32,405 nt of DNA from Labilibaculum manganireducens (lineage in GTDB: Bacteria > Bacteroidota > Bacteroidia > Bacteroidales > Marinifilaceae): NCBI RefSeq assembly GCF_002843385.1, contig NZ_MVDE01000049.1:1-32405 (forward strand), written 5' to 3'. The translations under genes were made by a program, and so were the position numbers. Of the stretch, positions 9,618 to 32,405 are shown piece by piece. A model generated the notes under the pieces. It saw only the letters and a program-made list of their open reading frames with translations, ran no database searches and was not told the DNA's origin. Within the stretch, counting starts at the first letter, position 1, and each line of letters begins with the position of its first letter.

Positions 9618-9629
9618 ACTCAACTTAAA

Positions 9630-11297
9630 ATGATTCAACGTTATCTGTTTGAGAACAAAACTTCTGTTCATATATTATTTCTGCTAGTAGTTTGCTACTT
9701 CGCGTTCTTCTTTGCCAACAGTAGTTTTTTTGTGAATATCATGGAAGCACGAAACTTTGTGACTGCCCGTGAAATGATTGAAAAAGGAAACTGGCTGGTT
9801 CCCACAATGAACGGAGAATTGCGCTTGGCAAAACCGCCGCTTCCTACATGGATTACTGCAGTATTTGGAAGCTGGTTTGGAATCGAAAATGTAAGTATGC
9901 TTCGATTTCCGGCGGCAATGGTCAGTTCCCTAATGGTGATTTTGATGTATTTCTTCACCATATCATTAAATAAAAACAGAATAGCGGCTTTATGTAATAG
10001 TCTCGTTTTAGCATCAAGTTTCTATATCGTTTATATGGGAAGAACCGGAACCTGGGATATTTACTGTCATAGCTTTATGCTTGGTGCCATTCTCTTTTTT
10101 CATAAAGCCTGGAAAACAGAAAATAAAAACTGGAAATTATTTATTGGTGCCGGTATCTTTTTGGGTTTATCATTCCTTAGTAAAGGACCCGTAGCATTTT
10201 TTGCCGTTTTAATTCCATTTTTAATTGCCTATTCATGGGTATACGATGGAAAAGTAATTCTACAAAAATGGCAGCCGCTTTTATTAGCCATTGGAATTTT
10301 TGTTGTGATCAGCTTTTGGTGGCCTGTTTTTATCTCTTTGGTTCACGCTGATGAAGCAGCCGCAATTGCTAAGCTGGAATCCGGCTCTTGGATGAACCGT
10401 CATGTTCGTCCGTTTTATTACTATTGGAATTTCCCTATTCAATCAGGAATCTGGACACTGATCATTTTCTCTGCATTGATTTCTCCATATGCCTTTAAAC
10501 GATTCGAGGCCAAAAAAGAATACAAATTTGCACTAATCTGGACCATTACAGCTGTTGTACTGCTATCGCTGATACCTGAAAAAAAAGACAGATATCTACT
10601 TCCTGTGCTAATTCCCAGTGCTTTACTAGCCGGGCAATTAATTCAGCACTTATTTCAGGTTTTTAAAAACAAAACGGCTGACAAATGGGACAATCTCATT
10701 TTTGGAGTTAACCTTTGGCTGATCGCCATTGTTGCTCTTGTAATGCCTGTTGGTATTTTTATCTTTTTCTATCAGGATCAGCAAATATCATTGCTCGCAT
10801 TTGTTCGTTTTGCTCTTCTTTCCGAAGGAATTTTTCTGTTATTGCTGATGGCATGGAAAAACAAAAACATTCTAAACTTTGTTATTGGAATGCTTTGTTT
10901 AATGGTAATTACTGAAGTATTTATATTACCAAACACCAGTAACTTACAAAACAGAAATAAAGAATTTAAAAATATCCGGGAGGCACGAAACATCGAATCA
11001 ATAAAAGATTTAAACCTATATAGTATTGGTAAAGAACAATTTCGAATTGAAATGGTTTGGGAAGTGGGCCGAGAAGTAAAATCCTGGAATACTGAAGACT
11101 TAACTGAATTCCCTAAGGAGAAATCATTTGTCGTTTTCTCCTCTGAGAATCCTAAGGAATTGTTCTCTGACTTGCAGCTTCAAAATATGGAATTTGAAAC
11201 CATCGATCATTACGATTACAATCGTCAACCAAAAGGAAATAAACGTTACAGTCCATATTTTCAGAAATACATGACCCTTATTACGATCAAACAATAG
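9630..11297 (+). CDS. ArnT-like family 39 glycosyltransferase (lipid-linked sugar to lipid A or protein)
   Basis: This encodes 555 residues with about eleven to thirteen hydrophobic segments through residue 440 and a soluble C-terminal tail of about 115 residues. The first periplasmic loop has IMEARNFVTAREMIEKGNW followed by RLAKPPLPTW, the GT39/ArnT pattern in which E39 stands at the catalytic acidic site and KPPL is invariant. MGRTGTWDIY and FLSKGPVAFF are further ArnT-family segments. The enzyme takes a sugar from polyprenyl phosphate and adds it to an acceptor on the periplasmic face. With the upstream ArnC-like and LAB_N genes it forms a complete donor-flip-transfer unit. The acceptor could be lipid A, as in polymyxin resistance; this is inference. 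Confidence 0.87.
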   Translation: MIQRYLFENKTSVHILFLLVVCYFAFFFANSSFFVNIMEARNFVTAREMIEKGNWLVPTMNGELRLAKPPLPTWITAVFGSWFGIENVSMLRFPAAMVSSLMVILMYFFTISLNKNRIAALCNSLVLASSFYIVYMGRTGTWDIYCHSFMLGAILFFHKAWKTENKNWKLFIGAGIFLGLSFLSKGPVAFFAVLIPFLIAYSWVYDGKVILQKWQPLLLAIGIFVVISFWWPVFISLVHADEAAAIAKLESGSWMNRHVRPFYYYWNFPIQSGIWTLIIFSALISPYAFKRFEAKKEYKFALIWTITAVVLLSLIPEKKDRYLLPVLIPSALLAGQLIQHLFQVFKNKTADKWDNLIFGVNLWLIAIVALVMPVGIFIFFYQDQQISLLAFVRFALLSEGIFLLLLMAWKNKNILNFVIGMLCLMVITEVFILPNTSNLQNRNKEFKNIREARNIESIKDLNLYSIGKEQFRIEMVWEVGREVKSWNTEDLTEFPKEKSFVVFSSENPKELFSDLQLQNMEFETIDHYDYNRQPKGNKRYSPYFQKYMTLITIKQ

Positions 11298-11423
11298 GAT
11301 ACTATTAGTTAAAAAAAACTAAGATTTCAGGCAAAATCAGTCATCTTTCATGATTATAGAATAGCTTTGTTTTACTTTTAAGTTAATTCTTAAGTTGTTG
11401 AAGATAATTGATATGGATTTATC

Positions 11424-11431
11424 TAATTTTG
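11424..11431 (+). promoter_or_regulatory. Candidate -7 element TAATTTTG for the epimerase gene
   Basis: TAATTTTG fits TAnnTTTG, with TTGTTG at 11395-11400 as a loose -33 box. Transcription would start near 11437. That is almost on top of the possible TTG start at 11442, so it supports the ATG at 11475. Confidence 0.45.
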
Positions 11432-11474
11432 ATTCACTCTTTTGAATCAAATCCAAAAAAATAAGTCAGGAGAT

Positions 11475-12455
11475 ATGCAAACTGTGAATAATAAATCGAC
11501 AGAAAAAACCATTCTTGTAACCGGATGTGCTGGTTTTATTGGATCTCATCTTTCTGAAAAATTACTATTACTGGGATATAAAGTTATTGGTATCGATAAT
11601 TTCGATCCATTTTATCCGAGAAATATAAAAGAAGAAAATATGAATGCTTTTTTTCAGAATTCATCCTATACATTTCATGAACTGGATTTACGGATTGATT
11701 CAAGTTTGGATATCATCGAAGATCAAATTGATTTGGTGGTTCATTTGGCAGGCAAGGCAGGAGTCCGGCCTTCTATCGAAGATCCGCAAGGATACATCGA
11801 CAGCAATATTACTGCAACCCGAAATGTATTGGATTTCATGCGAAAAAAGGGAATTAAAAAGCTGGCTTTTGCTTCCTCCTCATCGGTTTACGGCAACAAC
11901 AAAGACGTTCCTTTTTCGGAAAATCACAATGTTGACCGGGCCATTTCGCCTTATGCTTTCTCAAAAAAATCTTGTGAGGTTTTAAACCACAGCTACCATC
12001 ATTTGTACGATTTGGATATCATTAACATGAGATTTTTCACTGTTTTTGGTCCTCGTCAGCGACCCGATCTGGCCATTCATAAATTTCTGAAATTGTTCCG
12101 AAATGAACAGCCAATTCCAATGTTTGGAGATGGTTCTACGGCAAGAGATTATACTTTCGTTGATGATACTGTGGAGGGAATTGTAAAAAGCTGCAATTAT
12201 CTATTCAATCACGAACAGGTTTTTGAAACCATAAACCTGGGCAACAGCTATCCAATTCTTCTTCGCGACATGATTGATATCATCGCAAAAAATGCAAAAT
12301 GCGAACCGCAAATCAATCATCTGCCAATGCAGGCAGGTGATGTGGAACAAACCTATGCTGACATTTCCCGTGCAAAAAAACTGATTGGTTACAATCCGCA
12401 AGTTAGTTTCGAAGAGGGCATTAAACGCTTTATAACTTGGTTCGACAACAAATAG
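11475..12455 (+). CDS. NAD-dependent sugar epimerase, UDP-glucuronate 4-epimerase-like
   Basis: This encodes 326 residues from the ATG at 11475, which has AGGAG just upstream; a TTG 33 bases earlier is less likely. It is an extended short-chain dehydrogenase with a Rossmann GCAGFIGSHL (about 17-26), an acidic IDNFDPFY after strand 2, the serine cluster FASSSSVYG, and a catalytic Y160-x3-K164 in SPYAFSKKS. The substrate-side segment FFTVFGPRQRPDLAIHKF is characteristic of UDP-glucuronate 4-epimerases (galacturonate formation), as are DNFDPFYPRNIKE and GDGSTARDYTFVDD. It supplies nucleotide sugars for envelope polysaccharide or for the modification genes upstream. It has its own promoter and ends at a bidirectional terminator. 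Confidence 0.87.
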   Translation: MQTVNNKSTEKTILVTGCAGFIGSHLSEKLLLLGYKVIGIDNFDPFYPRNIKEENMNAFFQNSSYTFHELDLRIDSSLDIIEDQIDLVVHLAGKAGVRPSIEDPQGYIDSNITATRNVLDFMRKKGIKKLAFASSSSVYGNNKDVPFSENHNVDRAISPYAFSKKSCEVLNHSYHHLYDLDIINMRFFTVFGPRQRPDLAIHKFLKLFRNEQPIPMFGDGSTARDYTFVDDTVEGIVKSCNYLFNHEQVFETINLGNSYPILLRDMIDIIAKNAKCEPQINHLPMQAGDVEQTYADISRAKKLIGYNPQVSFEEGIKRFITWFDNK

Positions 12456-14933: not shown

Positions 14934-16445
<1,512 letters not shown>

Positions 16446-16483
16446 TTACATTAATTTTTTGGATCATTAATATCGCGTGACAA

Positions 16484-16491
16484 CAAATTTA
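16484..16491 (-). promoter_or_regulatory. Candidate -7 element for atpD-atpC
   Basis: The minus strand reads TAAATTTG here, fitting TAnnTTTG, 38 bases upstream of the atpD start. A leader of about 30 bases would result. Confidence 0.45.
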
Positions 16492-16538
16492 GAATTTTTT
16501 GTCAATAAAGGAGAATGTAACCTGAATTTTTAACATTC

Positions 16539-17513
16539 TTAAACGGAACGATCGACTAAACCTTTAACCAATAAATATAGTTCCTTTTTCTTTTCGGCAT
16601 CAACATCTACTTTATCGAGATATTCGAGACATAAAGCAAAATAATTCTCAATTTTATTCTGTGAATATTCACGAACATTCAATTGCTCATAAATAGTTCC
16701 TACGGCCTTTATTTTTTCTTCCGGATTAAAAGATTTTGTTGTAATCCAAGACTTTAATTCTTTTTCGACATCTCCCGAAGCAGTTTCCAGAGCATTAATT
16801 AAAAGAAAGGTTTTCTTATTGGATAAGATATCACCACCAATTTTCTTTCCAAAAACAGCCTCATCACCAAAAACATCTAAAAGATCGTCCTGAAGTTGGA
16901 ATGCCATACCTAGATTCACACCAAAATGGTACAATAACTCAGCATCTTTTGAGCTGGCATCACCCATTATTGCTCCCATTTTTAGACTTCCTCCTAATAG
17001 AACTGCTGTTTTCAATCGAATCATATTCAAATACTCTTCAATTTCAACATCATTTCTATCTTCAAATTCCATATCGAACTGCTGCCCCTCACAAACTTCC
17101 AAAGCTGTTTGATTAAACACAGTAAGAACATCGCGCAGGTATTTGTCTTCGCAGGAACCAATATACTGATATGCCTTAATAGACATGGCATCACCAGAAA
17201 GAATAGCTACGTTACTGTTCCATTTTTCGTGAACTGTTTTCTTGTTTCTGCGAATTGGAGCATTGTCCATTACATCATCGTGCAAAAGTGTGAAATTGTG
17301 AAATATTTCTATGCCGATAGCAGGCAAACAAACTTTTGAAAGATCATCCTTGTATAAATTAGCACCCAGCAGAACTAAAATTGGACGAAGCCGCTTCCCT
17401 CCAATGCCTAATATATATTTCATTGGTTCGAAAAGACCTTCCGGCGGAGCAGAAAACTCCAGTCCATCTATCTCTTTTTCAATAATTTCATGAAGTTCAT
17501 TAAAACTATACAT
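16539..17513 (-). CDS. Polyprenyl (isoprenyl) diphosphate synthase
   Basis: This encodes 324 residues, all-alpha. It has both aspartate-rich motifs: the first DDVMD at 79-83 within FTLLHDDVMDNAPIRR, and the second DDLLD at 209-213 within FQLQDDLLDVFGD. GGKRLRPILVLL (about 38-49) binds the allylic/isopentenyl diphosphate. The enzyme condenses isopentenyl diphosphate with an allylic starter to build a linear isoprenoid. The bulky F74 five residues before the first motif hints at a limited chain length, such as farnesyl or geranylgeranyl, but chain length cannot be fixed from this. It lies downstream of the RND gene on the same strand, 152 bases away. Confidence 0.9.
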   Translation of the reverse strand: MYSFNELHEIIEKEIDGLEFSAPPEGLFEPMKYILGIGGKRLRPILVLLGANLYKDDLSKVCLPAIGIEIFHNFTLLHDDVMDNAPIRRNKKTVHEKWNSNVAILSGDAMSIKAYQYIGSCEDKYLRDVLTVFNQTALEVCEGQQFDMEFEDRNDVEIEEYLNMIRLKTAVLLGGSLKMGAIMGDASSKDAELLYHFGVNLGMAFQLQDDLLDVFGDEAVFGKKIGGDILSNKKTFLLINALETASGDVEKELKSWITTKSFNPEEKIKAVGTIYEQLNVREYSQNKIENYFALCLEYLDKVDVDAEKKKELYLLVKGLVDRSV

Positions 17514-20574: not shown

Positions 20575-22269
20575 ATGAATTACGGATTGACCGATATTTT
20601 AACACTTATAGGGTCTTTAGGCTTATTCCTTTATGGAATGAAATTGATGAGTGAAGCTCTTCAACAAGTTGCCGGAGACAAGATGCGAACCATTCTCGCA
20701 GCAATGACTTCCAACCGATTTAAAGGTGTAATGACCGGCGTGTTAATTACTGCCCTTATTCAGTCTTCGTCAGCAACAACTGTAATGGTAGTTAGCTTTG
20801 TAAATGCCGGATTGTTATCGCTGGTAGAATCGATAGGAGTAATTATGGGTGCCAATATCGGTACTACGGTTACTGCCTGGTTAATCTCACTTTTGGGATT
20901 TAAGGTTAGTATGAGTGCAATATCTTTGCCTTTAATAGGTTTAGGCCTTCCATTCCTGTTTTCAAAAAATCGTACAAAGAAAAATTGGGGTGAATTGATT
21001 ATGGGATTTGCCTTGCTTTTTATTGGCTTGCAATTTCTTAAAACTTCAATGCCTGATATCAAAAATAATCCTGAGATTCTAAATTTCCTGACCAGCTATA
21101 CGGACATGGGATTTGCTTCTTCCCTGCTATTTTTGACTATCGGAACCCTTCTTACTATTTTAATTCAATCATCATCAGCTACCATGGCACTTACCTTGGT
21201 AATGTGTAATAGTGGATGGATTAGTTTCGAAATGGCTGCGGCTATGGTACTGGGAGAAAACATTGGTACTACTATTACAGCGAATCTTGCCGCAATGATT
21301 GCCAACACTTCAGCAAAAAGAGCTGCAAGAGCCCATTTAATCTTTAATACTTTTGGTGTTATGTGGATGCTGATTGCGTTGCCATTTTTCTTAAAAACGG
21401 TTGCTTGGGTTAACATGACTATTCTTGGAGGAGGCAATCCTTTTACAAACACAGCTGCCGTACCTATTTCCTTGTCTCTATTTCATACCGGATTTAATAT
21501 TCTAAATGTTGTTATCCTGATTTGGTTTGCCAATTTCATAGTAAAAGTAGTTACCAAACTGGTTCCTGTTCGTGAAGATGTAGAAGAGGAATTCAAACTT
21601 CAGCACATAAAAACAGGAACTCTTTCTACTCCAGAAGCATCTTTATTTTTAGCTAAAAAAGAAATCAGTGCTTACGTAAAAAGCACGAAGAAAATGTTTA
21701 GCTATACCAAGCAGGCATTTAACGAAACCAATGATAAAACTTTCAATAAACTTTTCGAGAAAATTGACAAAAGAGAAGATGAAAGTGATGATATGGAAGT
21801 GGAAATTGCCAACTTTCTTGCTAAAGTGTCTGAAACCAGACTAAGTTCTGAAAATTCGGAAAGAGTTCGCGCCTATTTTAAAATGGTAAGTGATATTGAA
21901 AGTGTTGGTGATTCAACTCTTAACCTCGCCAAAGCAATGAAAAGGAAACGTGAACAAAAAGCATGGTTTCCTCAGGAATTGAGAGATAATATCAACAATA
22001 TGTTCGCCTTGGTTGACGAAGCTCTTGATGTGATGCATGAAAACACTAAAAAAGAATTTGCGGAAGTAAAAATCAAAAAAGCCTGGGAAATTGAGCGTGA
22101 AATAAATGATTACCGAACTCTCCTAAAAACAGAACATTTAAACAATGTTGAGGAACATAAATACAAATACCAAGCTGGTATTATCTACAACGATCTGTTC
22201 TCTGAGTGTGAAAAAATAGGTGATTACTGCATCAATGTAAGTGAAGCTCTTAACGAGATAAAAGAGTAG
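20575..22269 (+). CDS. Na+/phosphate cotransporter, NptA type, with PhoU-like tail
   Basis: This encodes 564 residues. Two inverted-repeat Na_Pi_cotrans units each carry the hallmark QSSSAT motif (Q63-T68 and Q198-T203), followed by GANIGTT and GENIGTT respectively, which form the substrate and sodium site. The C-terminal portion (about 350-564) is helical and charged, like PhoU (FNKLFEKIDKREDESDDMEVEI, with landmarks FEKIDKRED and MVSDIESVGD). It imports inorganic phosphate with sodium across the inner membrane. It stands alone with its own promoter and terminator. A decayed second copy of its last 60 codons lies at 32098-32253. Confidence 0.93.
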   Translation: MNYGLTDILTLIGSLGLFLYGMKLMSEALQQVAGDKMRTILAAMTSNRFKGVMTGVLITALIQSSSATTVMVVSFVNAGLLSLVESIGVIMGANIGTTVTAWLISLLGFKVSMSAISLPLIGLGLPFLFSKNRTKKNWGELIMGFALLFIGLQFLKTSMPDIKNNPEILNFLTSYTDMGFASSLLFLTIGTLLTILIQSSSATMALTLVMCNSGWISFEMAAAMVLGENIGTTITANLAAMIANTSAKRAARAHLIFNTFGVMWMLIALPFFLKTVAWVNMTILGGGNPFTNTAAVPISLSLFHTGFNILNVVILIWFANFIVKVVTKLVPVREDVEEEFKLQHIKTGTLSTPEASLFLAKKEISAYVKSTKKMFSYTKQAFNETNDKTFNKLFEKIDKREDESDDMEVEIANFLAKVSETRLSSENSERVRAYFKMVSDIESVGDSTLNLAKAMKRKREQKAWFPQELRDNINNMFALVDEALDVMHENTKKEFAEVKIKKAWEIEREINDYRTLLKTEHLNNVEEHKYKYQAGIIYNDLFSECEKIGDYCINVSEALNEIKE

Positions 22270-22280
22270 TTAAAAAAATA

Positions 22281-22318
22281 CAATCTTAAGAATAAACAAT
22301 AACATATTCTTAAGATTG
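22281..22318. terminator. Bidirectional hairpin between the Na/Pi gene and the HlyD gene
   Basis: The 14-bp arms CAATCTTAAGAATA (22281-22294) and TATTCTTAAGATTG (22305-22318) pair perfectly around a 10-base loop. A-rich sequence precedes it and CATTTT follows. It separates convergent genes. The T-tract is weak on the plus strand; on the minus strand TATTTTTTTAA follows. Confidence 0.75.
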
Positions 22319-22323
22319 CATTT

Positions 22324-23664
22324 TCACACATTAATACTTTGTAGTATAGAGTAATAGAAACGTTGAATCAAACTCAAGTCTTTAGTGATTATCTCTGCAT
22401 TTGCAGTTAATCCGTCTCGATACTGTACTTTTTTATTATAACTGGTATTCAATCCATTTATAAAATTAACCTTTGCTAAATACCCCTTTTCCGAAGGGAT
22501 ATGTGAAATAAAACTTATTTTTCCAATCACAGAACCAAATTCTGCATATGGGTAGGAGTTGAATTTTAGAAAAACCTTTTGCCCCAATTCAACTTTTCCA
22601 AAATTTTTCTGTGGAATTGTGATTTGAGCAAAATAAGAAGATTCTTTCGGATTTACATAACAAACGACCTGATTATTTGTTAATTGTTGATTTTCCTGAA
22701 TAAAACTTTCAAAAGAAATCTTCCCGTCTAAAGGTGCTACAAGCAGATATTCTTTCTTCCAAGATTCTATTTTGCTTTTGAATGTATTTAGCGCTTGCTG
22801 AAAAACAATTTGCTGTTGACTAATTGTATTTTCCAACTCCTTTATTTCTTTCTGTTTATTATTTTGATTATTCTCATTATTAATAATCTCAGTTCCTGTT
22901 ATGGGTAGAGCTATTTTTTTACTAATGAATTTACTCTTTTCAGCTCTGTAAACTAAGTCCGAAATGATTTGTTTTTGTATTAACAGCTCGTAAGCATCCA
23001 TCGTTTTTTGAGCTAGCTCCAAATCTTCTTTTTGCAAAACTATTTGTTCGGAATAATTTAAATGCAGCTCTTTAAGATGCATCATATCTTTTTTTAACAT
23101 AGACATTTTGTCCATATAAAATCCTGTTGACAAGTAGTTTTTAAAAGTTATAAAAGCTTGTGAAAATATCTGATATGAAGCCTGTAATTCGCCTAGCTGC
23201 GAAAAATGATTTTGAAAGATATTAGGTATTTCTTCACATTCATTATCATACAATTTAACTTGAATTGAATCAATAATGACTGACAGTTTCATTACCTCTT
23301 CATGTATAGCAGTAGATTCCATCAAACCCAAAATATCACCCTTATAAACTTGCTGGCCTTCTTGTGCATTTATTTTTACAATCTTGCCATTGATAAGTGC
23401 AGGCACTGATTTAGGTGCATTTATTGATGTTAGTTCTGCAGGAGCTTTAATAACATCTGGATATTTAACTAACCCGCAAATTATTCCCAGAAACAATAAA
23501 ATTGAAAATAATATTACTGTACCCCACCGAATAATATATGGTACTTTCCATGAAATAACCTCTTCGATTTCATTACTGTGCTCAGCAAATGAATTCTTAT
23601 TTATCATTAGATTCGCCCCATTCTGAGATTGCTGAGCATTTACTTTTGGTAGATTAGTTTCCAA
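22324..23664 (-). CDS. HlyD-family membrane fusion protein of the peptide exporter
   Basis: This encodes 446 residues. A cytoplasmic N-terminus is followed by one transmembrane helix (about 45-66). A biotinyl-lipoyl-like half-motif then reads PALINGKIVKINAQEGQQVYKGDIL (landmarks GKIVKINAQEGQ). There is a long helical coiled-coil region (about 125-310) and a second lipoyl half with APLDGKISF. The closing beta-barrel part includes VGQ-type ELGQKVFLKFNSYPYAEFG text. It bridges the ABC exporter to an outer membrane channel; no TolC-like gene is in the window. The start overlaps the ABC gene by 11 bases, so the two are translationally coupled and form one machine. A second ATG at residue 20 is possible. 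Confidence 0.92.
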   Translation of the reverse strand: METNLPKVNAQQSQNGANLMINKNSFAEHSNEIEEVISWKVPYIIRWGTVILFSILLFLGIICGLVKYPDVIKAPAELTSINAPKSVPALINGKIVKINAQEGQQVYKGDILGLMESTAIHEEVMKLSVIIDSIQVKLYDNECEEIPNIFQNHFSQLGELQASYQIFSQAFITFKNYLSTGFYMDKMSMLKKDMMHLKELHLNYSEQIVLQKEDLELAQKTMDAYELLIQKQIISDLVYRAEKSKFISKKIALPITGTEIINNENNQNNKQKEIKELENTISQQQIVFQQALNTFKSKIESWKKEYLLVAPLDGKISFESFIQENQQLTNNQVVCYVNPKESSYFAQITIPQKNFGKVELGQKVFLKFNSYPYAEFGSVIGKISFISHIPSEKGYLAKVNFINGLNTSYNKKVQYRDGLTANAEIITKDLSLIQRFYYSILQSINV

Positions 23665-25870
23665 GTTCTAATTGATTTTTTACAAGTTGATAATACATCC
23701 CTCTTTTTGATGTTAACTCAGTATGAGTCCCTTTTTCTACAATTTCTCCCTTATCCAGGACAATTATATTATCTGCATTTTTAACTGTACTAAGTCTATG
23801 TGCAACAACAACTACAGTTTTTCCTTGAAAAAACTGCTGTAAATTCTCTAATATTTCCTTTTCATTATTGGCATCTAATGAGTTTGTTGCTTCATCTAAG
23901 AAAATATATTTAGGATTCTTATAAACAGCTCTTGCTATTGTAATTCTTTGTTTCTGTCCACCACTTATACCTTTTCCTTCAGCTCCTAATTTTGTATAAA
24001 AACCCAAAGGCAAGGATTCTATAAATTCATCTATATTCGCTATCCTACAAGCTTCCTGCAATCGCTTACTATCAACAACATTATCCGTAACTGTAATATT
24101 TTTTCTAATATTATCATTGAAAATAAAACTTTCCTGCATGACAGAACCGCACATACTCCTCCAATACTTCGGACTAACGGTATTATAATTTGTTGTTCCA
24201 ATCTGAATCTCTCCGCTATAACTATCATAAAAACGCAACAAAAGCTTTATTAAAGTCGTTTTACCGCAACCGCTCATACCTACTATTGCAGTTACTTTCC
24301 CCTTTGGAATTGTTAAGTTGATATTTTTTAAAACAGGTTCATTCCCTGCTCCCGGATAAGTGAAAGACAAATTCTTCATAGAAATACTATCATTTAATTC
24401 TGAGGTTCGATCAAAAAATTTACTTATTGGTTCTTCGTCTTCTAAAGAATGAATATCATTTAACCTTTCTAAACTAATTTTTGCATTCTGTGCTTGTTGT
24501 GTAAAAATTATCAATTGTTCTATAGGGCTACTTAGCTGTCCTAAAATATATTGAATTGCCAACATCACTCCCATGGTTAGGTTTCCCTCAATAACTAGTT
24601 TCGCAACCAAATAGGTGATTAAAATATTCTTGCTCTGGTTAATAAAAAATGCACCAACTTCCTGATACTGATCAAGAGACAAATTTTTGAATTTTAATTT
24701 AAATAAACCTGCCTGTAAACCTTCCCATGCCCAACGATAAGTGTTCTCCGCATTATTCAACTTTATCTCCTGCATTCCATAAACCAATTGCATTGTTGCA
24801 TTGTTTTCTTTAGAAGCAATTGAGAAACGTTTATAGTCCAGCTTTCTTCTGTACTTCAAAAAAAGCCGAATCCATAACAGATACAATACACTACCTGTAA
24901 GAAAAATGAAAAACACAGTAATGTCATAAAAATAAAGTACGAAAGAGTATAAAATCAATGTTATAATACTAAACAAAGAACTAATTGCCGTTCCTGTCAA
25001 AAATTCTTCTATTCGATGATGGTCACTAATACGCTGAATAATATCTCCGGGGTGTTTACTATCAAAGAATTTCATTGGTAGTTTTAATAGTTTGGCCCAA
25101 AAAAAAGACAAAAGAGAGATATTTATGCGCGTGCTAATATGAAGAAGAATTCTACTTCGTATAAATTCGACTACGGTTTGGGAGAATAGCAACATTAATT
25201 GAGCAGCCAAAATAATCTGAATAAAACTAAGATTTTGCGTATTTATACCAGTATCTACAATACTTTGAGTCAGATATGGAAAAACCAACTGTAACAGAGC
25301 TCCTAAAAGTGAACCCAATAAAATTTGTATGAAATAGAGTCTAAAATCTTTTATGTATCCCAATAATGTACTCCACCCTATTTTAGCTTTCTTATCCTCT
25401 GTGTCATATTCTGATTCATAGAATTCAGGAGTTGGTTCTAGAACTAAGGCAACTCCCTTGTTTACTCCTTGTTCCGTAGTTGATATCCAATTTCTTAAAA
25501 ATTCTTCTTTGGTTAGTTTAATAATTCCATTTCTGGGATCTGCAATTCTAAGATGTTTTTTGGCTCTTTGCCTGCGTGAATGAGGTAAGATCACAACAAA
25601 ATGTTTAGGCTGCCAATATAAAATTGCCGGAAAGGGAATATCACTCAATAATTGCTCAAAACTTATTTTTAAACCTAAAGATTTTAAACCTATACTTTCA
25701 GCAGCATCAGCTATTCCCAATAAAGTAACACCCTCTTTACCTATCTGAGTCTTCTCTCGCAGAAAATCGTTAGTAAAAGATCGCCCATAAAATTTAGCGA
25801 TCATTCGCAAGCAAGTAGGACCACAGTCCATTACATCCAGCTGACGAAAAAAAGGAAAAGATTTATACAT
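23654..25870 (-). CDS. Peptidase C39-containing ABC exporter (PCAT) for double-glycine peptides
   Basis: This encodes 738 residues. The N-terminal C39 cysteine peptidase (about 1-140) has Q10, the catalytic C16 in DVMDCGPTC, H90 in PKHFVVI and D111 in IADPRNG, so it should be active. Six transmembrane helices (about 170-460) follow. The nucleotide-binding domain has Walker A GMSGCGKT (531-538, CGKT in place of the common SGKS/T), signature ISGGQKQR (635-642), Walker B YIFLDE (655-660) and the H-loop VAHRLST. Such proteins cut the leader after Gly-Gly and export the core peptide using ATP. Its probable substrate is encoded at 29501-29662 in the same cluster. Confidence 0.95.
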   Translation of the reverse strand: MYKSFPFFRQLDVMDCGPTCLRMIAKFYGRSFTNDFLREKTQIGKEGVTLLGIADAAESIGLKSLGLKISFEQLLSDIPFPAILYWQPKHFVVILPHSRRQRAKKHLRIADPRNGIIKLTKEEFLRNWISTTEQGVNKGVALVLEPTPEFYESEYDTEDKKAKIGWSTLLGYIKDFRLYFIQILLGSLLGALLQLVFPYLTQSIVDTGINTQNLSFIQIILAAQLMLLFSQTVVEFIRSRILLHISTRINISLLSFFWAKLLKLPMKFFDSKHPGDIIQRISDHHRIEEFLTGTAISSLFSIITLILYSFVLYFYDITVFFIFLTGSVLYLLWIRLFLKYRRKLDYKRFSIASKENNATMQLVYGMQEIKLNNAENTYRWAWEGLQAGLFKLKFKNLSLDQYQEVGAFFINQSKNILITYLVAKLVIEGNLTMGVMLAIQYILGQLSSPIEQLIIFTQQAQNAKISLERLNDIHSLEDEEPISKFFDRTSELNDSISMKNLSFTYPGAGNEPVLKNINLTIPKGKVTAIVGMSGCGKTTLIKLLLRFYDSYSGEIQIGTTNYNTVSPKYWRSMCGSVMQESFIFNDNIRKNITVTDNVVDSKRLQEACRIANIDEFIESLPLGFYTKLGAEGKGISGGQKQRITIARAVYKNPKYIFLDEATNSLDANNEKEILENLQQFFQGKTVVVVAHRLSTVKNADNIIVLDKGEIVEKGTHTELTSKRGMYYQLVKNQLELGN

Positions 25871-25939
25871 TAAAACCAGACTAAATCAATTATTACTATT
25901 GTTTATAATTTCATAAAAAAAATATTAACCCCCTTTTCA

Positions 25940-27517
25940 TCAACCATTACAAACATTTAAATGACTATAATACAATGAATTTTGAATCAGAAAATAAAAC
26001 ACATCTTCCTCTATATCATTGCTTTCATACTCAAAGGGAGTCTGCCCTGATTTTATTAAATCGATAATTTGGTTTCCTGATATTTCACTATCTTCAAAAT
26101 AATATAACAGTATATCCCAATCCTTTAGAATCTGATATTTTATTTTATTGTCAATCCATTTGATCAGCATTAACTGAGGTGCTTTCTTCATACCTATTTG
26201 AGTCTTACCTTCTGCAATCTGTCTCAAATAAGTAGTATCAATATTCTCATTAAAATCATGAAATATGAATTGAATAACACACCTTTCTTTGTCTATTGAA
26301 AATGTTCTACCTAAAAACGAACTCTTATTATAATTATACACAAGATCCAATCGGTTCTTAATAGTTTCTTCAAGAGGTGGTATTACTTTATCTTGTTGAT
26401 TCAACAAGATTTTTGTTGTAGCTTGTTCAATTTGATAAATATCCATAAGCAAATACTGTTGTTTATCAAATTCCTCTTTTTCAAACAGTTCACACATAAA
26501 ATTTTCTATCTTTTCCTTATCACTATCACAAATTGTGATCTTCATTTTTTTCAAAAGAACTCTTGTGTTAGGGTAATCTGGATAAGAATCAAACTGGTCA
26601 ACAGAGATTTTTTCAGATGCTTTTTCTTTCTTCTTTCCCGGGAAATACGTATCCCTGATTCGTTGATAAACCTCTGGAAATTCATACTTTAAACGAGCCT
26701 CAATTTCCAAATATATAAATTCTTTTCTTTTGCTTACACCAATTGTATGTATATACTTGGTCAGAATTGGAACATCATTAACTCTCAAAAATTGCTCAAA
26801 GGTTTCTTTCACTCCTTCACATAGAGGAGTGATCTCCAATCGCTTTTGCTTAGCTAGTAGGAAAAAAATTAATTGTTCGAATACGGGATTAAACATTCCA
26901 ATGTTAATTTTCGAGATTTGGTCTGTATTCTTATCTACCAAATCCATTGCTATAGCAGCATATTCTTTAAAGAACTCATAGTTTTGTCCTCCAATAACAC
27001 CTGCATTTATAGCTGTAATCGTTTGCTTCTTTCTGATTTCATCCATTAATAATGAAGGTATATCTCTAAAGTTTTCTTCTATTTGATTTAGCGATGTTTG
27101 ATAAAAAGCGAAGTTCTTTTCAAAGTTCTGCACTAATAGTTGACTCTTCTCAAAAGTTGAATTGAATTTTTCCCAAATAAAAACGTCTCCGTCTGCATGA
27201 ATAAATGGTGCATTTTGCTGGCTATATGCATATACTTTCGGTAAGGCCCAAAGTAAGGGATGATATTTACTCAAACAGTCTAAATTACAAACCACCTCAC
27301 TGTATTCCAAACCTAATTTGTTAATTAACCAATCATATCCATCCTTATCGGTATACAACACAATTTCTGGGTAAAACTGTTTAAATTTCAAATTACTTAA
27401 AGCCCAACTACATGCATGATAAAACTCTGAAGGCCACCCTCCATTGTTTCTTCCATTCAAATCATCAGGATTATTAAATTTTGCTGGTGCAGACCAGTAT
27501 GTTTGTATTACTTTCAT
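25940..27517 (-). CDS. Putative glycosyltransferase (DUF6734-type) in the peptide cluster
   Basis: This encodes 525 residues with no signal peptide and no membrane segment. It starts MKVIQTYWSAP; GGWPSEFYHACSWALSNLKF, EIVLYTDKDG and KYHPLLWALPKVYAYS follow, then FIHADGDVFIW, where D109-G-D111 is a DxD metal-binding motif of GT-A transferases. AINAGVIGGQN later resembles the NxGxxG step of such enzymes. This matches what I recall of family DUF6734, which has no proven function. The last ~190 residues form a separate charged, helix-rich part that I do not recognise. The gene lies between the repeat array and the ABC exporter (69-base gap), so sugar transfer onto the peptide is an attractive but unproven role. 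Confidence 0.65.
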   Translation of the reverse strand: MKVIQTYWSAPAKFNNPDDLNGRNNGGWPSEFYHACSWALSNLKFKQFYPEIVLYTDKDGYDWLINKLGLEYSEVVCNLDCLSKYHPLLWALPKVYAYSQQNAPFIHADGDVFIWEKFNSTFEKSQLLVQNFEKNFAFYQTSLNQIEENFRDIPSLLMDEIRKKQTITAINAGVIGGQNYEFFKEYAAIAMDLVDKNTDQISKINIGMFNPVFEQLIFFLLAKQKRLEITPLCEGVKETFEQFLRVNDVPILTKYIHTIGVSKRKEFIYLEIEARLKYEFPEVYQRIRDTYFPGKKKEKASEKISVDQFDSYPDYPNTRVLLKKMKITICDSDKEKIENFMCELFEKEEFDKQQYLLMDIYQIEQATTKILLNQQDKVIPPLEETIKNRLDLVYNYNKSSFLGRTFSIDKERCVIQFIFHDFNENIDTTYLRQIAEGKTQIGMKKAPQLMLIKWIDNKIKYQILKDWDILLYYFEDSEISGNQIIDLIKSGQTPFEYESNDIEEDVFYFLIQNSLYYSHLNVCNG

Positions 27518-27815
27518 ATGTTTATAATTTTAAGTTTTTGTCATATAGCCTGTCCCGAACTTGTTTCGGGAGAACTTACCATGCTGAAATAATCATCCCC
27601 CTGTGTGTCAAAATATCCTTGTCATGGACGTTTCATATGATTATAATTTGTTTTCATTTGCCATATGGAACTTACCATATAATCATCTCCCTGTGTGTAG
27701 AAAGCTTTATACATGGACGTTTCATATGATTAGAATTTTAAGTTTTTGCCATATGGAACTTATCATGAACCAATAATCATCCCCTTGAGTGTCAAAAATT
27801 CCTTGACATGCAAGT
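27514..27815 (-). repeat. Three tandem degenerate leader repeats upstream of the putative glycosyltransferase
   Basis: Three imperfect units fill most of the 384-base gap: 27721-27815, 27631-27720 and 27514-27630. On the minus strand each unit runs from about CATG(T/A)CAAGG, through GACACxCAGGGGGATGATTAT and TAAGTTCCATATGGCAAA, to ATAATCATATGAAA. The last ATATGAAA is the start codon region of the gene at 27517, so the units look like copies of its leader plus first codons. The unit next to the gene carries an inserted hairpin CCCGAA-ACAAG-TTCGGG (about 27553-27571), itself a common Bacteroidota element. A 58-codon frame (27722-27898) crosses one unit but shows no codon-like conservation. Confidence 0.75.
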
Positions 27816-27901
27816 TTTATATTATTTATTATCCACGGCAACAGATCTGGTATCAAGCTAATAAATTGTATCATTTCTAACCGTGCAAAAAGGATCATCT
27901 T

Positions 27902-29428
27902 TTACTCAATAATTTTATTTTTTATCTGTTTTACTAATTTCTCATACAAGCTTGGACGATAGGCATTATTTTCAATCACTTCACCTTTTTTATTGTAAAT
28001 CATATAACGCGGTATTCCTGAAAACTGAGTATTTAAAACATCTTTCATACTTTTATTTGTCAAAAAATGATAACCATACAGTTTATAATTCTTAATAAAA
28101 TCCTTCCAATTCTCTTTACTACCCTCATTATCGAGCGATACATAGAGCATTTCTATATCATTTTCTTTAAGAAATATTGTCAACAATTCCTTGTGTTTAA
28201 ACTCAGCTACACAAGGCGCACAATAGGTTGCCCAATAATCCACAAATACATTTTTTCCAGAAAAATTTTCTTTAATTACCTGATCAATATCACTATATTC
28301 CTTAATGTCAAACTTTATAATCCTTCCTTGTGCATCTAAACGAAGCAATTGATTTTTATTTTGATCGCTTTCTGCTGATACATCAATAGTGCCAAGTAGT
28401 TCATTAACAATAGTCGCATTGTATGGACTATCCGGAAATAAATCCCTATATGTTTTAAATACCCTGACAAAATTTTCATTAGACATAGGTTTAAACACCA
28501 AAGCTATCATCATGGCATTTCCAATTAAAAATTCTTGCTGATTCAATGGAGCGTAATCGTATATCCCAAATTCAGAATCAACCATTCCAAAATACTCCTT
28601 ATATTTTTCCCATACTCTTTGGGGCTTTGAATTAGATATTGGTAATTTTTTCTCTTTTATCAAATAACATTTAAAAGCTGCTGTATTAGATACGACAATA
28701 CTTGATTCATATTTTTTTGCAAAAGGATCAAATTCTTCAAATAACTGTTCTGTTAACTGGAGCAATTCTTTTTTATTCATTCTTAGTTCCTGAGCGTTTT
28801 TAAACCCGTCACTAATTATTCCCATAGTCCAAAACAATAATCTCTGTTCCGTTTCTGCCATGAGATTAGCCAGGCATGTTTCAGTAATCTCGTTTTTCAC
28901 ATACAAATCATTTAGCAATGTCTTATATGGAGATAAGATAAAATGAAGACTATCCATAGCCTGAGAAGAACTTGAAGAATTCTTTATCACATTTACAATT
29001 GTATTTTGATCATCACCTCCATTATTTAAGAGCTTTCTATTAACCAACAAATCATTTCCTCTGGCATTTGTACCATGAAATATGACCATTTGATTCTTAG
29101 ATACTGAATCTGTTATCACTTCAAAATCTATCACTTCCCCTCTGTCTACATAGCACATAAATTTTGGAAGTCCTTTACTTTGTATTCTCACAAATGAGTT
29201 TTCAGACAAATACAATTCTTTTGTGAACATTCTATTTTCAATGAAACAATCGTCATTTCCATCAACATAAAATATATTGAAGCGTCTTTGTATTGGTTTA
29301 CTTAACTGGACTACATCCCCATTTTGAGCAATATCTATCTTTCCCTTAATTATAAATTTTGAGTTTTGCGACAATGTTATTTGCCCCAAAAAAAGAGTGA
29401 CAAATAAAAAAACAATAATGTATCTCAT
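27902..29428 (-). CDS. Exported TlpA-like thiol-disulfide oxidoreductase
   Basis: This encodes 508 residues. A Sec signal peptide (about 1-20, MRYIIVFLFVTLFLGQITLS) is followed by a roughly 350-residue N-terminal region of mixed type without recognised motifs. Long TlpA/ResA-like proteins of Bacteroidota commonly have such a region. A C-terminal thioredoxin-like domain (about 385-505) follows, with the redox motif C403-A-P-C406 in DYWATYCAPCVAEF and the cis-proline loop SGIPRYMIY. It should act on thiols in the periplasm. Standing between the precursor gene and the modification/export genes, it may reduce, proofread or isomerise disulfides of the exported four-cysteine peptide. Confidence 0.88.
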   Translation of the reverse strand: MRYIIVFLFVTLFLGQITLSQNSKFIIKGKIDIAQNGDVVQLSKPIQRRFNIFYVDGNDDCFIENRMFTKELYLSENSFVRIQSKGLPKFMCYVDRGEVIDFEVITDSVSKNQMVIFHGTNARGNDLLVNRKLLNNGGDDQNTIVNVIKNSSSSSQAMDSLHFILSPYKTLLNDLYVKNEITETCLANLMAETEQRLLFWTMGIISDGFKNAQELRMNKKELLQLTEQLFEEFDPFAKKYESSIVVSNTAAFKCYLIKEKKLPISNSKPQRVWEKYKEYFGMVDSEFGIYDYAPLNQQEFLIGNAMMIALVFKPMSNENFVRVFKTYRDLFPDSPYNATIVNELLGTIDVSAESDQNKNQLLRLDAQGRIIKFDIKEYSDIDQVIKENFSGKNVFVDYWATYCAPCVAEFKHKELLTIFLKENDIEMLYVSLDNEGSKENWKDFIKNYKLYGYHFLTNKSMKDVLNTQFSGIPRYMIYNKKGEVIENNAYRPSLYEKLVKQIKNKIIE

Positions 29429-29459
29429 TAAATAAAATATTAATAATGAATAAATTGCT

Positions 29460-29486
29460 AAAAGGAGAGAGAGTCAATCTCTCTCC
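29460..29486 (-). terminator. Terminator or attenuator hairpin after the precursor peptide gene
   Basis: On the minus strand GGAGAGAGA (29486-29478) and TCTCTCTCC (29472-29464) form a 9-bp stem with a 5-base loop, followed by only four T. It lies 15 bases after the peptide stop codon. A weak terminator at this place would let the peptide be made in excess over the downstream genes. Confidence 0.6.
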
Positions 29487-29500
29487 CTATTATCTGCTAA

Positions 29501-29662
29501 TTAGCATGCATTCCAACAAGAAGCGATACTACCCATTTCTCCTTTATATGTTCCATTACAATAACAAGAAAATCCACCATCCATTGCTTTCATTTCATTT
29601 CTTGATAATTTTTGTGCTGGTAATAAAGAATCAATCTTTAACATTTTAGCTGTTTTTGCCAT
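29501..29662 (-). CDS. Double-glycine leader precursor peptide with a four-cysteine core
   Basis: This encodes 53 residues. The leader (1-30) begins MAKTAKMLKIDSLLPAQ and ends KLSRNEMKAMDGG. L19, E23, M27 and G29-G30 occupy the -12, -8, -4, -2 and -1 positions recognised by C39 peptidases. This is the GG-leader type known from Bacteroidales natural-product precursors. The 23-residue core (31-53) has cysteines at 33, 35, 49 and 53 (C-x-C, 13 residues, C-x3-C), one Lys and one Glu, and possible glycosylation sites S32, T38, S45 and S48. Nested pairing 33-53 and 35-49 would give a hairpin. The cluster's C39 exporter, VKOR-thioredoxin and TlpA-like protein fit a secreted disulfide-bonded peptide. 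Activity (bacteriocin or signal) is unknown. Confidence 0.9.
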   Translation of the reverse strand: MAKTAKMLKIDSLLPAQKLSRNEMKAMDGGFSCYCNGTYKGEMGSIASCWNAC

Positions 29663-29796
29663 TTTTATAATTTTTAATATTTGACTTTGCTTTTATAAAT
29701 AGGTACAAAGCTCATTTACCTTCATTTGCTGTTGCAAATGGTCAATAACTTACCATTACTGTACGTGCACATACAAACAAGTAAGTTAATCTTTAA
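29663..29796 (-). promoter_or_regulatory. Leader region of the precursor gene with a stem-loop
   Basis: A perfect hairpin, CATTTGC (29723-29729), loop TGTT, GCAAATG (29734-29740), lies about 60 bases upstream of the peptide start, 56 bases past the stop codon of the fusion-protein gene. No T-run follows on either strand and no TAnnTTTG box was found. The region may hold an RNA-processing site or an unrecognised promoter. Confidence 0.4.
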
Positions 29797-31404
29797 TCAC
29801 ATTATGTAATGTAAATTGTCGATGTCATAAATAAAAGGCAATTGATATCCATTAAAAAAATACGTAGGTGTATACTGTATTTGTGTATTTATGCACCATT
29901 CATCCATTATGTCCACCCCAACATCGACATTTAGCAACTCTTCTTTAAGCGGATATTTTTGAGCGAATCTATCATAGCTCAAATCTGAAATTTGGTACCA
30001 ATCTTTAAGAATTTTAAATTTTCCCCGGTCAGTTTTGCATTGGGACATAAGAACCATAATATGAAATGTAGGAAGAAAGGCAGGATTTTCTTTTCGATTT
30101 GGCGTTGTATAAATTATTCTGATTTTCAAATCAATATTTTTAGATAATAATTTTTCTATTTTGGGATGTGATTGACTGCAAGGTTGACAATATGGATTGC
30201 ACACTTTTATTAATGTATTTGTAGCATTCTTATTGCCTAAAAGAATTCCGACATCTTCCCCTGGTTCTTCTATTTGTTTCTGTTTTATTAGTAAACTTTG
30301 AAAGATATCAGGATTATATTTAAATCGACGTAGTTCCAGTTTTATAGAATTAGCCTCATTAAGATGGATTACAAAAGGTTTAAGAGATAACCATAACAAT
30401 AATGAAGAGAGATATGCCCCTAAAATTTTAACAAAAAATAGAGAAGAAAAATTAAATAGAAAAAAGGATTGATAATTAATCAATGCATTTATCCCTCCTA
30501 TCACTAATAAGGATTGTATCAGCAGACACAAAACGCACCATTTTTTTACAATGAATGCCTGATAACAAATTGAAAATATTACATATGGTAAAGCCAATAC
30601 ATTAATAAAAAGAACTGCTATTAATGCATTTTTTATAGAATTTCCAACAAATACAAGCGTAACAATTCCGCCTAAAAAATATGTCCACCCTATTTCACTC
30701 CAATTTAGTATTCCGAATAATTTTGATGCTTTCGAAGTTATTACCGATTTACAATTACCATTTCCAAAAGCAGAACAAACTTTATCCCAAAAATAATTAT
30801 GAGTCCTAAATTCATATTTCATTAGTTCTGATGATATCACCACTCCAATCACCAATACAAAATATTGTAGGTAAACCACATTACTTAAAAGCAAATCCAG
30901 ATTTGCCATTTTTTGATTAATAGAATAAAATGAAGCCGTGAATAATACAACTAAAAATATAATTGGCAATAGAACCTGAACTAAGTTCCTTAACTTGATT
31001 TGTTTGTACCCTTCCTCACCAGAAGAAACCGTAGTTTCAACCAATAAACAAACACCAGTCCAGACAGATAGAAAATTATTTTTCTCAATGCTCTCTGTTC
31101 TATTTTTTCCATTGGCATAAAACTCTACTTTTTTATCATTTACACTTGCTACTATAACAGGATGTCCCTTATCATTAACGTAGGTTAGAAAGGGGGGTGA
31201 AATACTGCCAATCTCTTCTCTGCTAATGTGAACCGCAGCATTCTTAACCTTCCACATATTAAGGGAATCACTAATACTCAGTAAGCTGGGCCACTCCGGG
31301 TGATTTTCCAAAGAATCTTCAATTGTTTTAGAATTAACTTTGATTTTCAATAATCGTAAGAGTCTTATTACAACATCAACCTCTGGAGAATACATTTTAA
31401 ACAT
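29797..31404 (-). CDS. C39-like / VKOR / thioredoxin fusion: disulfide-forming membrane protein
   Basis: This encodes 535 residues. Residues 1-125 resemble a C39 peptidase fold without the catalytic cysteine (GHPVIVAS stands where the active-site His strand is expected) and may bind the GG leader. After a transmembrane helix (about 140-160) comes a VKOR domain (about 170-345). It has loop cysteines C210 and C218 (VCSAFGNGNCKSVITSKASKLFGI) and the quinone-side pair C290-VL-C293. A C-terminal thioredoxin/DsbA-like domain (about 380-535) has C406-QP-C409 and cis-proline P513 in YTPTYFFNG. Electrons would pass from substrate thiols through the thioredoxin domain and VKOR to quinone, making disulfides in the periplasm. 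It is the first gene of the cluster and the natural oxidase for the four-cysteine peptide. Confidence 0.9.
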   Translation of the reverse strand: MFKMYSPEVDVVIRLLRLLKIKVNSKTIEDSLENHPEWPSLLSISDSLNMWKVKNAAVHISREEIGSISPPFLTYVNDKGHPVIVASVNDKKVEFYANGKNRTESIEKNNFLSVWTGVCLLVETTVSSGEEGYKQIKLRNLVQVLLPIIFLVVLFTASFYSINQKMANLDLLLSNVVYLQYFVLVIGVVISSELMKYEFRTHNYFWDKVCSAFGNGNCKSVITSKASKLFGILNWSEIGWTYFLGGIVTLVFVGNSIKNALIAVLFINVLALPYVIFSICYQAFIVKKWCVLCLLIQSLLVIGGINALINYQSFFLFNFSSLFFVKILGAYLSSLLLWLSLKPFVIHLNEANSIKLELRRFKYNPDIFQSLLIKQKQIEEPGEDVGILLGNKNATNTLIKVCNPYCQPCSQSHPKIEKLLSKNIDLKIRIIYTTPNRKENPAFLPTFHIMVLMSQCKTDRGKFKILKDWYQISDLSYDRFAQKYPLKEELLNVDVGVDIMDEWCINTQIQYTPTYFFNGYQLPFIYDIDNLHYIM

Positions 31405-32097
31405 ATCGTTACTTACAAATTATACTGCAAACAATTTAAATCACTCCACTGCCAAACACCTTTTCAAAAAATTACTCTCATAAATATTTACAATACTTTA
31501 CATTAATATTGAATACTACTAATATTATGGGTAAACTAAATTTACTCTTTAAACAAACTGCCCTTAAATTGTCAAAATACAATTAAAGCAATTCATAAAT
31601 CTCTTTTTACACAACATAAATATTTACTCACTGAATTTATACAAAATTTAAACACTATGAAATAAATAATCAATAAATTATGAAATATTTATCCACAATC
31701 TAAACCGCAATCGTTTTCTGTTTATTTAAAAAGCCATTTTACCACAAAACACTACACCTTCAAAATCTAAAGATACATTATGAGACATTATTTACTAAAA
31801 TTTCACATAACAAATTAATAAAAAATTCACTTATAATGTTTCAGTTAAATTAAAATTAATGAGGACTAAAGGAAAATCGTACAAATTAGTATAAACAAAT
31901 AATTTTATAATTTTTGTTTATGATAATATATTTGTATTAAAAAGAAGGTACCTTAGATAAGTGTTTCTTGCTCTTCACCTTGATTTGGTTGAAAAAAATA
32001 AATTTTAAGGTAAAGATACTACCGCGTTTAAACTGACATAAAATTCCAAATAACCTCTCTGAAATTGATAAGGTCACTTTTATCTAATCTCCAAATT
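31405..32097. other. Gene-poor, very AT-rich stretch
   Basis: No open frame above about 40 codons looks real on either strand, and no tRNA, repeat array or hairpin terminator was recognised. TATATTTG at 31927-31934 fits the TAnnTTTG -7 box on the plus strand but has no gene behind it, only the decayed cotransporter fragment. The promoter of the minus-strand peptide cluster should lie near 31405-31600, yet no good match was found there. The base composition is poorer in G+C than the housekeeping part of the window. Confidence 0.5.
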
Positions 32098-32253
32098 ATT
32101 GATAATGAAATCAACGCTATAGAACTACTCTTATAACTGAATATCTCACAAATTTAGAAGAGAATAAATGCAATATTGTTTATAGTGATCTGTTCTCTAA
32201 AGTGTAAAAATAGGTGTTAAAATAAGTGGGCAATTAATAAAATTAAAGAATAA
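32098..32253 (+). pseudogene. Decayed copy of the Na/Pi cotransporter 3' end
   Basis: Translated in two frames joined by a shift near 32134, the fragment reads IDNEINAIELLL, then TEYLTNLEENKCNIVYSDLFS, then after a further frame break KIKE and a stop. The intact gene at 20575-22269 ends IEREINDYRTLL, TEHLNNVEEHKYKYQ, GIIYNDLFSE and NEIKE in the same order. At DNA level GATCTGTTCTCT and AAAAATAGGTG are identical in both. In-frame stops and at least two frame breaks show it is not expressed as a protein. Only about the last 55-60 codons are recognisable. Confidence 0.8.
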
Positions 32254-32299
32254 TACGGTTCTGTTTGTTAATTTACTCAAAAAAAACTTATCTTAGTAT

Positions 32300-32405
32300 A
32301 TGCCAAAAATTATAGATGTAGAAATCACCGAAAGTGAATCAGAATTACTTTACCTTCTGAGAAAGCAGACAAAAATTCTTCAGCATAGTAGAGTTAAAAC
32401 CCTTC
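32300..32405 (+). CDS. Probable IS630-type transposase, N-terminal fragment (runs off the window)
   Basis: Thirty-five codons are visible: MPKIIDVEITESESELLYLL then RKQTKILQHSRVKTL. This resembles the start of the helix-turn-helix region of IS630-family transposases in Bacteroidota, where a short beta-strand start precedes an E-L-x-x-L-L helix and a K/R-rich helix. The rest lies beyond the window, so neither completeness nor the inverted repeats can be judged. It follows the decayed cotransporter fragment by 46 bases. Confidence 0.5.
   Translation, partial: MPKIIDVEITESESELLYLLRKQTKILQHSRVKTL

Follow-up and report, generated by a model that had tools for sequence, protein, structure and literature searches.

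Glycocins are defined by two Cx6C segments that form a helix-loop-helix held by nested disulfides, and the enzymes SunS and GccA that serve them are glycosyltransferases of family GT2. Clusters of this kind reportedly extend beyond the Firmicutes, and the account attributed to Singh and Rao in 2021 may already mention related loci in Bacteroidota. In Bacteroidota, the bacteroidetocins are encoded in a region that, according to the sections of the source that describe it, also specifies a protein with five transmembrane (TM) segments (PMC6671954). Fusions of a glycosyltransferase to a recognition element (RRE) of ribosomally synthesized and post-translationally modified peptides (RiPPs) appear in passing in passages of a 2020 and a 2025 paper (PMC7470986; PMC12710340). 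Here we analyze a 32,405-nucleotide stretch of Labilibaculum manganireducens DNA (contig NZ_MVDE01000049.1 of assembly GCF_002843385.1; hereafter the window), in which six genes on the minus strand, between 22324 and 31404, encode a small precursor peptide, a C39-like/VKOR/thioredoxin fusion, a TlpA-like protein, a DUF6734 protein, a C39 exporter and an HlyD adaptor. We consider it reasonably likely that they form a RiPP cluster in which the DUF6734 protein glycosylates the peptide under RRE guidance, the exporter and adaptor secrete it, and the VKOR and TlpA-like proteins form its disulfides, the product being most likely a bacteriocin. The features are:

22324 to 23664, minus strand: HlyD-type periplasmic adaptor with a TTG start (Pfam HlyD_3 over its cut-off, TIGR01843 below its cut-off)
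23654 to 25870, minus strand: C39 peptidase-containing ABC exporter (PCAT), catalytic cysteine motif present (Pfam, alignment)
25940 to 27517, minus strand: DUF6734 protein with a predicted GT-A-like domain (residues 1-290) and a predicted RRE-like C-terminal domain (about 400-515) (Pfam, AlphaFold2, Foldseek, homologue alignments)
27518 to 27901, no strand: intergenic stretch with imperfect repeats about 90 bp apart (repeat search)
27902 to 29428, minus strand: TlpA-like thiol oxidoreductase (CAPC) with a hydrophobic N-terminal segment (Pfam Thioredoxin_8, hydropathy)
29464 to 29486, minus strand: hairpin and then TTTT, directly 3' of the precursor gene (inverted repeat, RNA fold)
29501 to 29662, minus strand: 53-residue precursor with a 30-residue double-glycine leader and the 23-residue core FSCYCNGTYKGEMGSIASCWNAC (open reading frame; leader model, 18.8 bits)
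29797 to 31404, minus strand: C39-like domain without the catalytic cysteine, VKOR domain (CVLC at 290) and thioredoxin domain (CQPC at 406) (Pfam, alignment with exporters)

The first-pass annotation, made from the letters of the sequence alone, had proposed the precursor gene together with its leader positions and a four-cysteine core, and these hold. The leader, MAKTAKMLKIDSLLPAQKLSRNEMKAMDGG, carries L-12, E-8, M-4 and the double glycine (GG), and the four cysteines of the 23-residue core are arranged as CxC and Cx3C, the spacing that the annotation had contrasted with the two Cx6C segments of glycocins. On a hidden Markov model (HMM) of leaders trained at other loci the window precursor has the joint top score, 18.8 bits, against a best score of 8.4 for reversed sequences, which argues that it is not a chance open reading frame (ORF). 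The bare core has a calculated mass of 2493.95 Da when reduced and 2489.92 Da with two disulfides. The precursor passes no curated cut-off in NCBIfam, where TIGR04149 (radical SAM-modified RiPP) gives 17.2 bits for a cut-off of 25; among the window precursor and ten others, two of the eleven exceed a curated cut-off (L173, with TIGR04149 and TIGR01847, and L085, with NF047798; loci are given by L numbers).

The link between such precursors and DUF6734 comes from the same model, which was built from 27 peptides at loci picked for a VKOR fusion, some of them in genomes that hold DUF6734 elsewhere (e.g., those of L087, L093, L098 and L100). It was applied to the 4702 small ORFs of 39 loci, of which 33 had been fetched for DUF6734 (the window included) and 6 were controls; L029, near-identical to L027, and L035, L037 and L040, the same places as L045, L025 and L028, were omitted, while L045, with a broken DUF6734 copy, and L178, whose DUF6734 gene was not recovered by phmmer, were counted. 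Fourteen matches exceed the best reversed score, the lowest by 0.2 bits. Ten of them lie outside large ORFs. These ten, each with four or six cysteines, come from nine of the 39 loci, and every one has a long DUF6734 gene no more than 2 kb away; eight sit 35-108 bases from that gene, and those of L173 and the window lie 1667 and 1984 bases away. The chance expectation, taken from the 225 among 851 comparable ORFs that fall within 2 kb of DUF6734, gives p of about 2e-6 for the ten matches, or 9e-5 if they are counted as seven lineages by our own grouping. The other four lie inside larger ORFs, namely the cotransporter gene of the window and homologues of it in the controls L167, L170 and L171; as they reach 11.4-13.1 bits and outscore four of the ten retained, the score alone is not clean, and these four were set aside.

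A leader-model match occurs in nine of the 16 loci whose DUF6734 protein exceeds 400 residues. By eye L028 and L033 hold the same kind of peptide, L039 has a two-cysteine peptide, and in L044 a leader of lanthipeptide type accompanies LanB and LanC-like genes. No such peptide was found near the long DUF6734 copy in L034 (which has SPASM, a sub-threshold ATP-grasp and a PCAT), L038 (at a contig end) or L174, and loci with short DUF6734 proteins only gave no leader-model match, the pattern search picking up other GG-type peptides in L041 and L042. The first-pass annotation had staked its reading on these genes recurring together in other genomes, which they do: all six kinds are present in L043 and L173, and L023 has the set with no TlpA-like gene seen. 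Additional glycosyltransferase genes near DUF6734 in L173, L041 and L175 also fit the proposed role. A VKOR fusion shares the locus with DUF6734 in 6 of 33 cases (the window, L023, L032, L043, L173 and L175), and in the phylum sample it is found in all seven genomes with a long DUF6734 vs 34 of 388 others (Fisher 8e-8, kinship ignored). DUF6734 itself occurs in 16 of 395 genomes of the phylum sample and, at E 0.001, in 10 of 393 of the order sample, eight of these being over the cut-off.

The window DUF6734 protein matches PF20508 at 325.3 bits and no other Pfam family. In an AlphaFold2 model based on a 14-sequence alignment, residues 1-290 are well predicted, with 21 of 29 ten-residue blocks averaging a predicted local distance difference test (pLDDT) score of at least 90. 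When the model of this domain was compared with the Protein Data Bank (PDB) by Foldseek, all 50 matches listed (of 568, E up to 10) were glycosyltransferases, of five kinds: glycogenin-1, glycogenin-2, xyloside xylosyltransferase, alpha-1,3-galactosyltransferase and BoGT6a, the best being glycogenin (E 1.3e-4). Among viral matches at E up to 0.001, 12 of 18 are named glycosyl- or nucleoside diphosphate (NDP)-sugar transferases. The predicted structure thus combines a GT-A fold with a DxD motif. That motif had been pointed out before, and its D109 and D111 are invariant in the 14 sequences, as are N171, G173, E214, Q215, H257 and K263; together they run in the same order as the DxD, NAG and H..G..K residues of the GT8 alpha-1,4-galactosyltransferase 1ss9, residues with functional roles in GT8. 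The glycine of H..G..K is variable in DUF6734. A forced global alignment of DUF6734 with GT8 was useless and was discarded, and a sequence search of the PDB returned no matches for the DUF6734 profile at E up to 10 or for the VKOR fusion at E up to 0.01. Judged by its modeled fold, the DUF6734 protein is a candidate peptide glycosyltransferase.

Its C-terminal domain was aligned with those of eight homologous proteins from six loci, and this alignment places the RRE-like region of the window protein. The same domain, modeled on a Tenacibaculum homologue (pLDDT 85), has a winged-helix fold that resembles known RREs, with no E below 0.001. Among the top 30 PDB rows, 29 come from eight proteins, namely MibB, TbtB, TbiB1 with leader, ThcOx, PqqD, MccB, NisB and the PbtF RRE, and the one remaining row, ranked 26, is a TRAMP subunit; we take MibB, TbtB, ThcOx, MccB and NisB to be RRE-bearing. 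The assignment rests on the consistency of these matches, not on single E-values, and by this model DUF6734 proteins seem to incorporate a domain that takes hold of a peptide leader.

The remaining neighbors that the first-pass annotation had placed on the same strand are borne out by Pfam. The VKOR fusion matches PF07884 (44.8 bits) and PF03412 (28.6 bits), both over cut-off, with thioredoxin matches slightly below theirs; the TlpA-like protein, which is probably periplasmic judging from its N-terminus, matches PF13905 (35.3 bits), and the adaptor matches PF13437 over cut-off (48.4 bits). The exporter scores 103 bits on PF03412 and retains the DCG motif, so that it looks active, as had been supposed. 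Three features had gone unnoticed: the C39-like start of the VKOR fusion, the RRE-like end of the DUF6734 protein and the hairpin after the precursor gene. In the C39-like domain the DCG motif is missing from 23 of 23 aligned fusions and kept in six of six aligned exporters (fusions under 450 residues, from split frames in L089 and L095, and L099 were left out of the alignment), and both CxxC pairs are kept in all 23 fusions. The joining of a dead C39 domain to an oxidase suggests substrate docking, and the fusion is predicted to be a membrane disulfide-forming protein that possibly docks leaders.

Of 395 Bacteroidota genomes sampled, 41 encode relatives of the fusion (E 1e-10). Twenty stretches, mostly the top scoring of 59 match rows, were inspected: cysteine-bearing GG-type peptides lie near the fusion in 19, L091 showing none, by a permissive display pattern that also catches chance ORFs, and a PCAT is present in 11 (in one case as a fragment where the contig ends) and a TlpA-like gene in seven (phmmer). 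A stricter pattern gave 27 peptides, one of them without cysteine and likely a false catch, and the core cysteine count is even in 24 of the 26 that bear cysteine (binomial p 5e-6, kinship ignored). The genes for disulfides and export belong to a broader Bacteroidota system, in most cases found without DUF6734, and even-cysteine double-glycine peptides beside a dead-C39/VKOR/thioredoxin fusion offer a minable family of secreted disulfide peptides. One further example lies in the same genome (L083, C4:177001-197000), where at 9163-12181 a second VKOR fusion precedes a tandem array of five GG peptides. Each of the five has four cysteines, and two share the identical core CYADGTCPAGWTCISGTC.

In the mechanism we propose, the DUF6734 protein would use its RRE-like C-terminal domain to grip the precursor leader in the cytoplasm, and its GT-A domain would move a sugar from a nucleotide sugar onto the core. 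The PCAT/HlyD exporter would cleave after the double glycine and secrete the 23-residue core, and the C39-like/VKOR/thioredoxin and TlpA-like proteins would insert disulfides at or beyond the inner membrane, with the dead C39 domain probably acting as a dock for the leader or substrate. The product would most likely be a bacteriocin. O-linkage to serine or threonine is slightly favored over S-linkage, since disulfide pairing should occupy the four cysteines.

Several observations weigh against this reading. The even cysteine counts are compatible with S-glycosylation too, given that orniglycocin, as presented in the relevant part of its description, has eight cysteines and two S-linked N-acetylglucosamines (PMC12457901), and the argument that even counts rule out S-linkage was dropped on this account. 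The Foldseek scores of the GT-A domain are modest (template modeling score to target 0.32-0.58), and profile comparison (hhalign) of DUF6734 with GT8 (PF01501) is not significant (p 0.28), with no Pfam glycosyltransferase match. The C-terminus of the window protein itself is poorly modeled, the RRE model being that of the homologue; its fold matches are individually weak (best E 0.0065, none at or below 0.001), and hhalign against the PqqD profile is not significant (p 0.061 over 76 columns). The TlpA gene stands between the window precursor and its DUF6734 gene at the distance given above, the VKOR fusion is found elsewhere in the genome in five of the seven long-DUF6734 genomes, and there is no DUF6734 match in 29 of the 41 genomes with a VKOR fusion, so the peptide system can do without DUF6734. 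Lastly, DUF6734 also occurs in extracellular contractile injection system (eCIS) loci, beside nonribosomal peptide synthetase (NRPS) and LanC-like genes (L030) and in a radical-SAM locus with GG peptides (L041).

It is improbable, in our estimate, that the peptide is a plain disulfide double-glycine bacteriocin of the VKOR-fusion type and that DUF6734 merely shares the operon while glycosylating something else, such as a surface glycan or an immunity factor. The inspected VKOR-fusion loci with their cysteine-bearing peptides speak for it, as none displays DUF6734 in the stretch inspected, and so do the eCIS and NRPS contexts and the extra glycosyltransferase genes near DUF6734 in L173, L041 and L175, which might serve glycan pathways; yet an RRE-like domain on DUF6734 and the position of eight of the ten leader-model peptides right beside its gene count against a bystander. 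A GT-A fold adapted to a non-sugar donor, by which DUF6734 would modify the core through some other transfer, would account for the lack of significant GT8 profile similarity and of any Pfam glycosyltransferase match, the sugar itself being conjectural; we rate it as very improbable, since every listed PDB match is a sugar transferase and the metal and nucleotide motif positions are kept. The proposed modification would also be compatible with a signaling or other non-killing peptide, a use we think unlikely although no immunity gene was recognized in the cluster by profile-library scans (Pfam and NCBIfam) and nothing points to a target: bacteroidetocins, PCAT-exported disulfide peptides of Bacteroidota, kill relatives and likewise come without an obvious immunity gene in the portion of the work that treats them (PMC6671954).

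Beyond RRE-guided glycosylation at this locus, we advance more tentatively, as something that may well not hold, that long DUF6734 proteins are an undescribed group of RRE-guided peptide glycosyltransferases, a GT8-like lineage recruited independently of SunS that across Bacteroidota marks out a separate class of glycopeptides locked by disulfides and that also acts on scaffolds of the lanthipeptide and perhaps the graspetide type. Were this so, a functionally unassigned Pfam family would acquire a role in leader-guided peptide glycosylation, Bacteroidota would make glycocin-like products with an enzyme of separate recruitment, and a glycosyltransferase that carries its own RRE would offer a means of steering sugars to peptides of choice. 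At large DUF6734 is a natural-product-linked family, not exclusive to the VKOR-fusion peptide system. Its divergent branch lies beside contractile-injection genes, confirmed by Pfam in L048 and with the same layout in L049-L052; the short DUF6734 genes of these five loci are paired in three. In L044 a DUF6625 protein (15613-16872) adjoins the LanB and LanC-like genes and the long DUF6734, another uncharacterized family in a RiPP cluster.

As to the history of the locus, the homology that six of six opened genus relatives share from window position 20001 stops where the Na/Pi cotransporter gene ends (22265-22271). The DNA that follows in the nearest relative is found on another contig of the window's genome (97% over 1588 of 2000 bases, the match ending 225 bases before the contig end), so the two contigs would adjoin and the cluster most likely sits at a site that is empty in that relative. 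Among nine genomes of the genus, of which two that lack a match are incomplete or contaminated, the precursor was found in one, and the idea that it recurs across the genus was rejected. GC content is 31.3% in 22324-31404 vs 36.5% in 1-22269, and the cluster was probably acquired horizontally. On the far side of the cluster from the cotransporter gene, 32174-32216 holds a degraded sequence similar to that gene's 3' end (35 of 44 positions match, E 4e-5), as though the insert were flanked by a leftover copy, and an open frame at the contig end (32300-32404) looks by eye like the start of a transposase, with no Pfam match.

The hairpin after the precursor gene folds at -17 kcal/mol (z -2.9, equaled by 1 of 200 shuffles). 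A terminator scan reports it on the plus strand only, the four T residues on the minus strand being too few for the scan, and it is possibly a partial terminator or RNA stabilizer, a layout that could leave precursor mRNA in excess of downstream mRNA. An Rfam scan of 22000-32405 gave no match at the gathering score. Between the TlpA and DUF6734 genes (27512-27826) the imperfect repeats are 90-94 bp apart, with a 25-base core in three copies.

Among described systems, the bacteroidetocins share with this cluster a Bacteroidota host, a GG leader, four cysteines (in A and B), a thiol oxidoreductase, a PCAT and a multi-TM protein. They differ, in the sections that characterize them, by a leader of 15-16 residues and a mature peptide of 42 (35-50), against 30 and 23 here, and by a four-gene region without a glycosyltransferase, against six genes here, and the assignment to bacteroidetocins was rejected on leader, core and gene number (PMC6671954). 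The RRE-glycosyltransferase fusions of RRE-Finder have in principle the same architecture (PMC7470986; PMC12710340), whereas the 2025 paper, in the passage concerned, names PF00535 and the enzyme here is DUF6734 (PMC12710340); in the literature searched, DUF6734 was found neither as such a fusion nor by name. With GT8 enzymes (glycogenin, LgtC) the protein shares the modeled fold and the order of DxD, NxG and H...K, unlike them having no Pfam GT8 match and no significant profile similarity. Closest in its way of working are the glycocins (sublancin, glycocin F and thermoglycocin), which, as far as the source's overview goes, likewise combine a leader cut by a C39 exporter, a cysteine-rich disulfide core, thioredoxin-like helpers, a PCAT and a glycosyltransferase (PMC12457901); a leader and a C39 exporter are encoded side by side here as well. 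The core, however, is CxC...Cx3C instead of two Cx6C, the predicted enzyme has a GT8/GT6-like fold with a fused RRE-like domain and matches PF20508 only, whereas glycocins use GT2, and the VKOR fusion and the Bacteroidota host set the cluster further apart. A plain glycocin was rejected, membership failing on core pattern and enzyme family. The first-pass annotation had called the cluster a glycocin-like counterpart, and as an analogy of working, with glycosylation as its conjectural step, this stands well, if indirectly, supported by the predicted fold, the architecture and the co-occurrence of precursor and enzyme.

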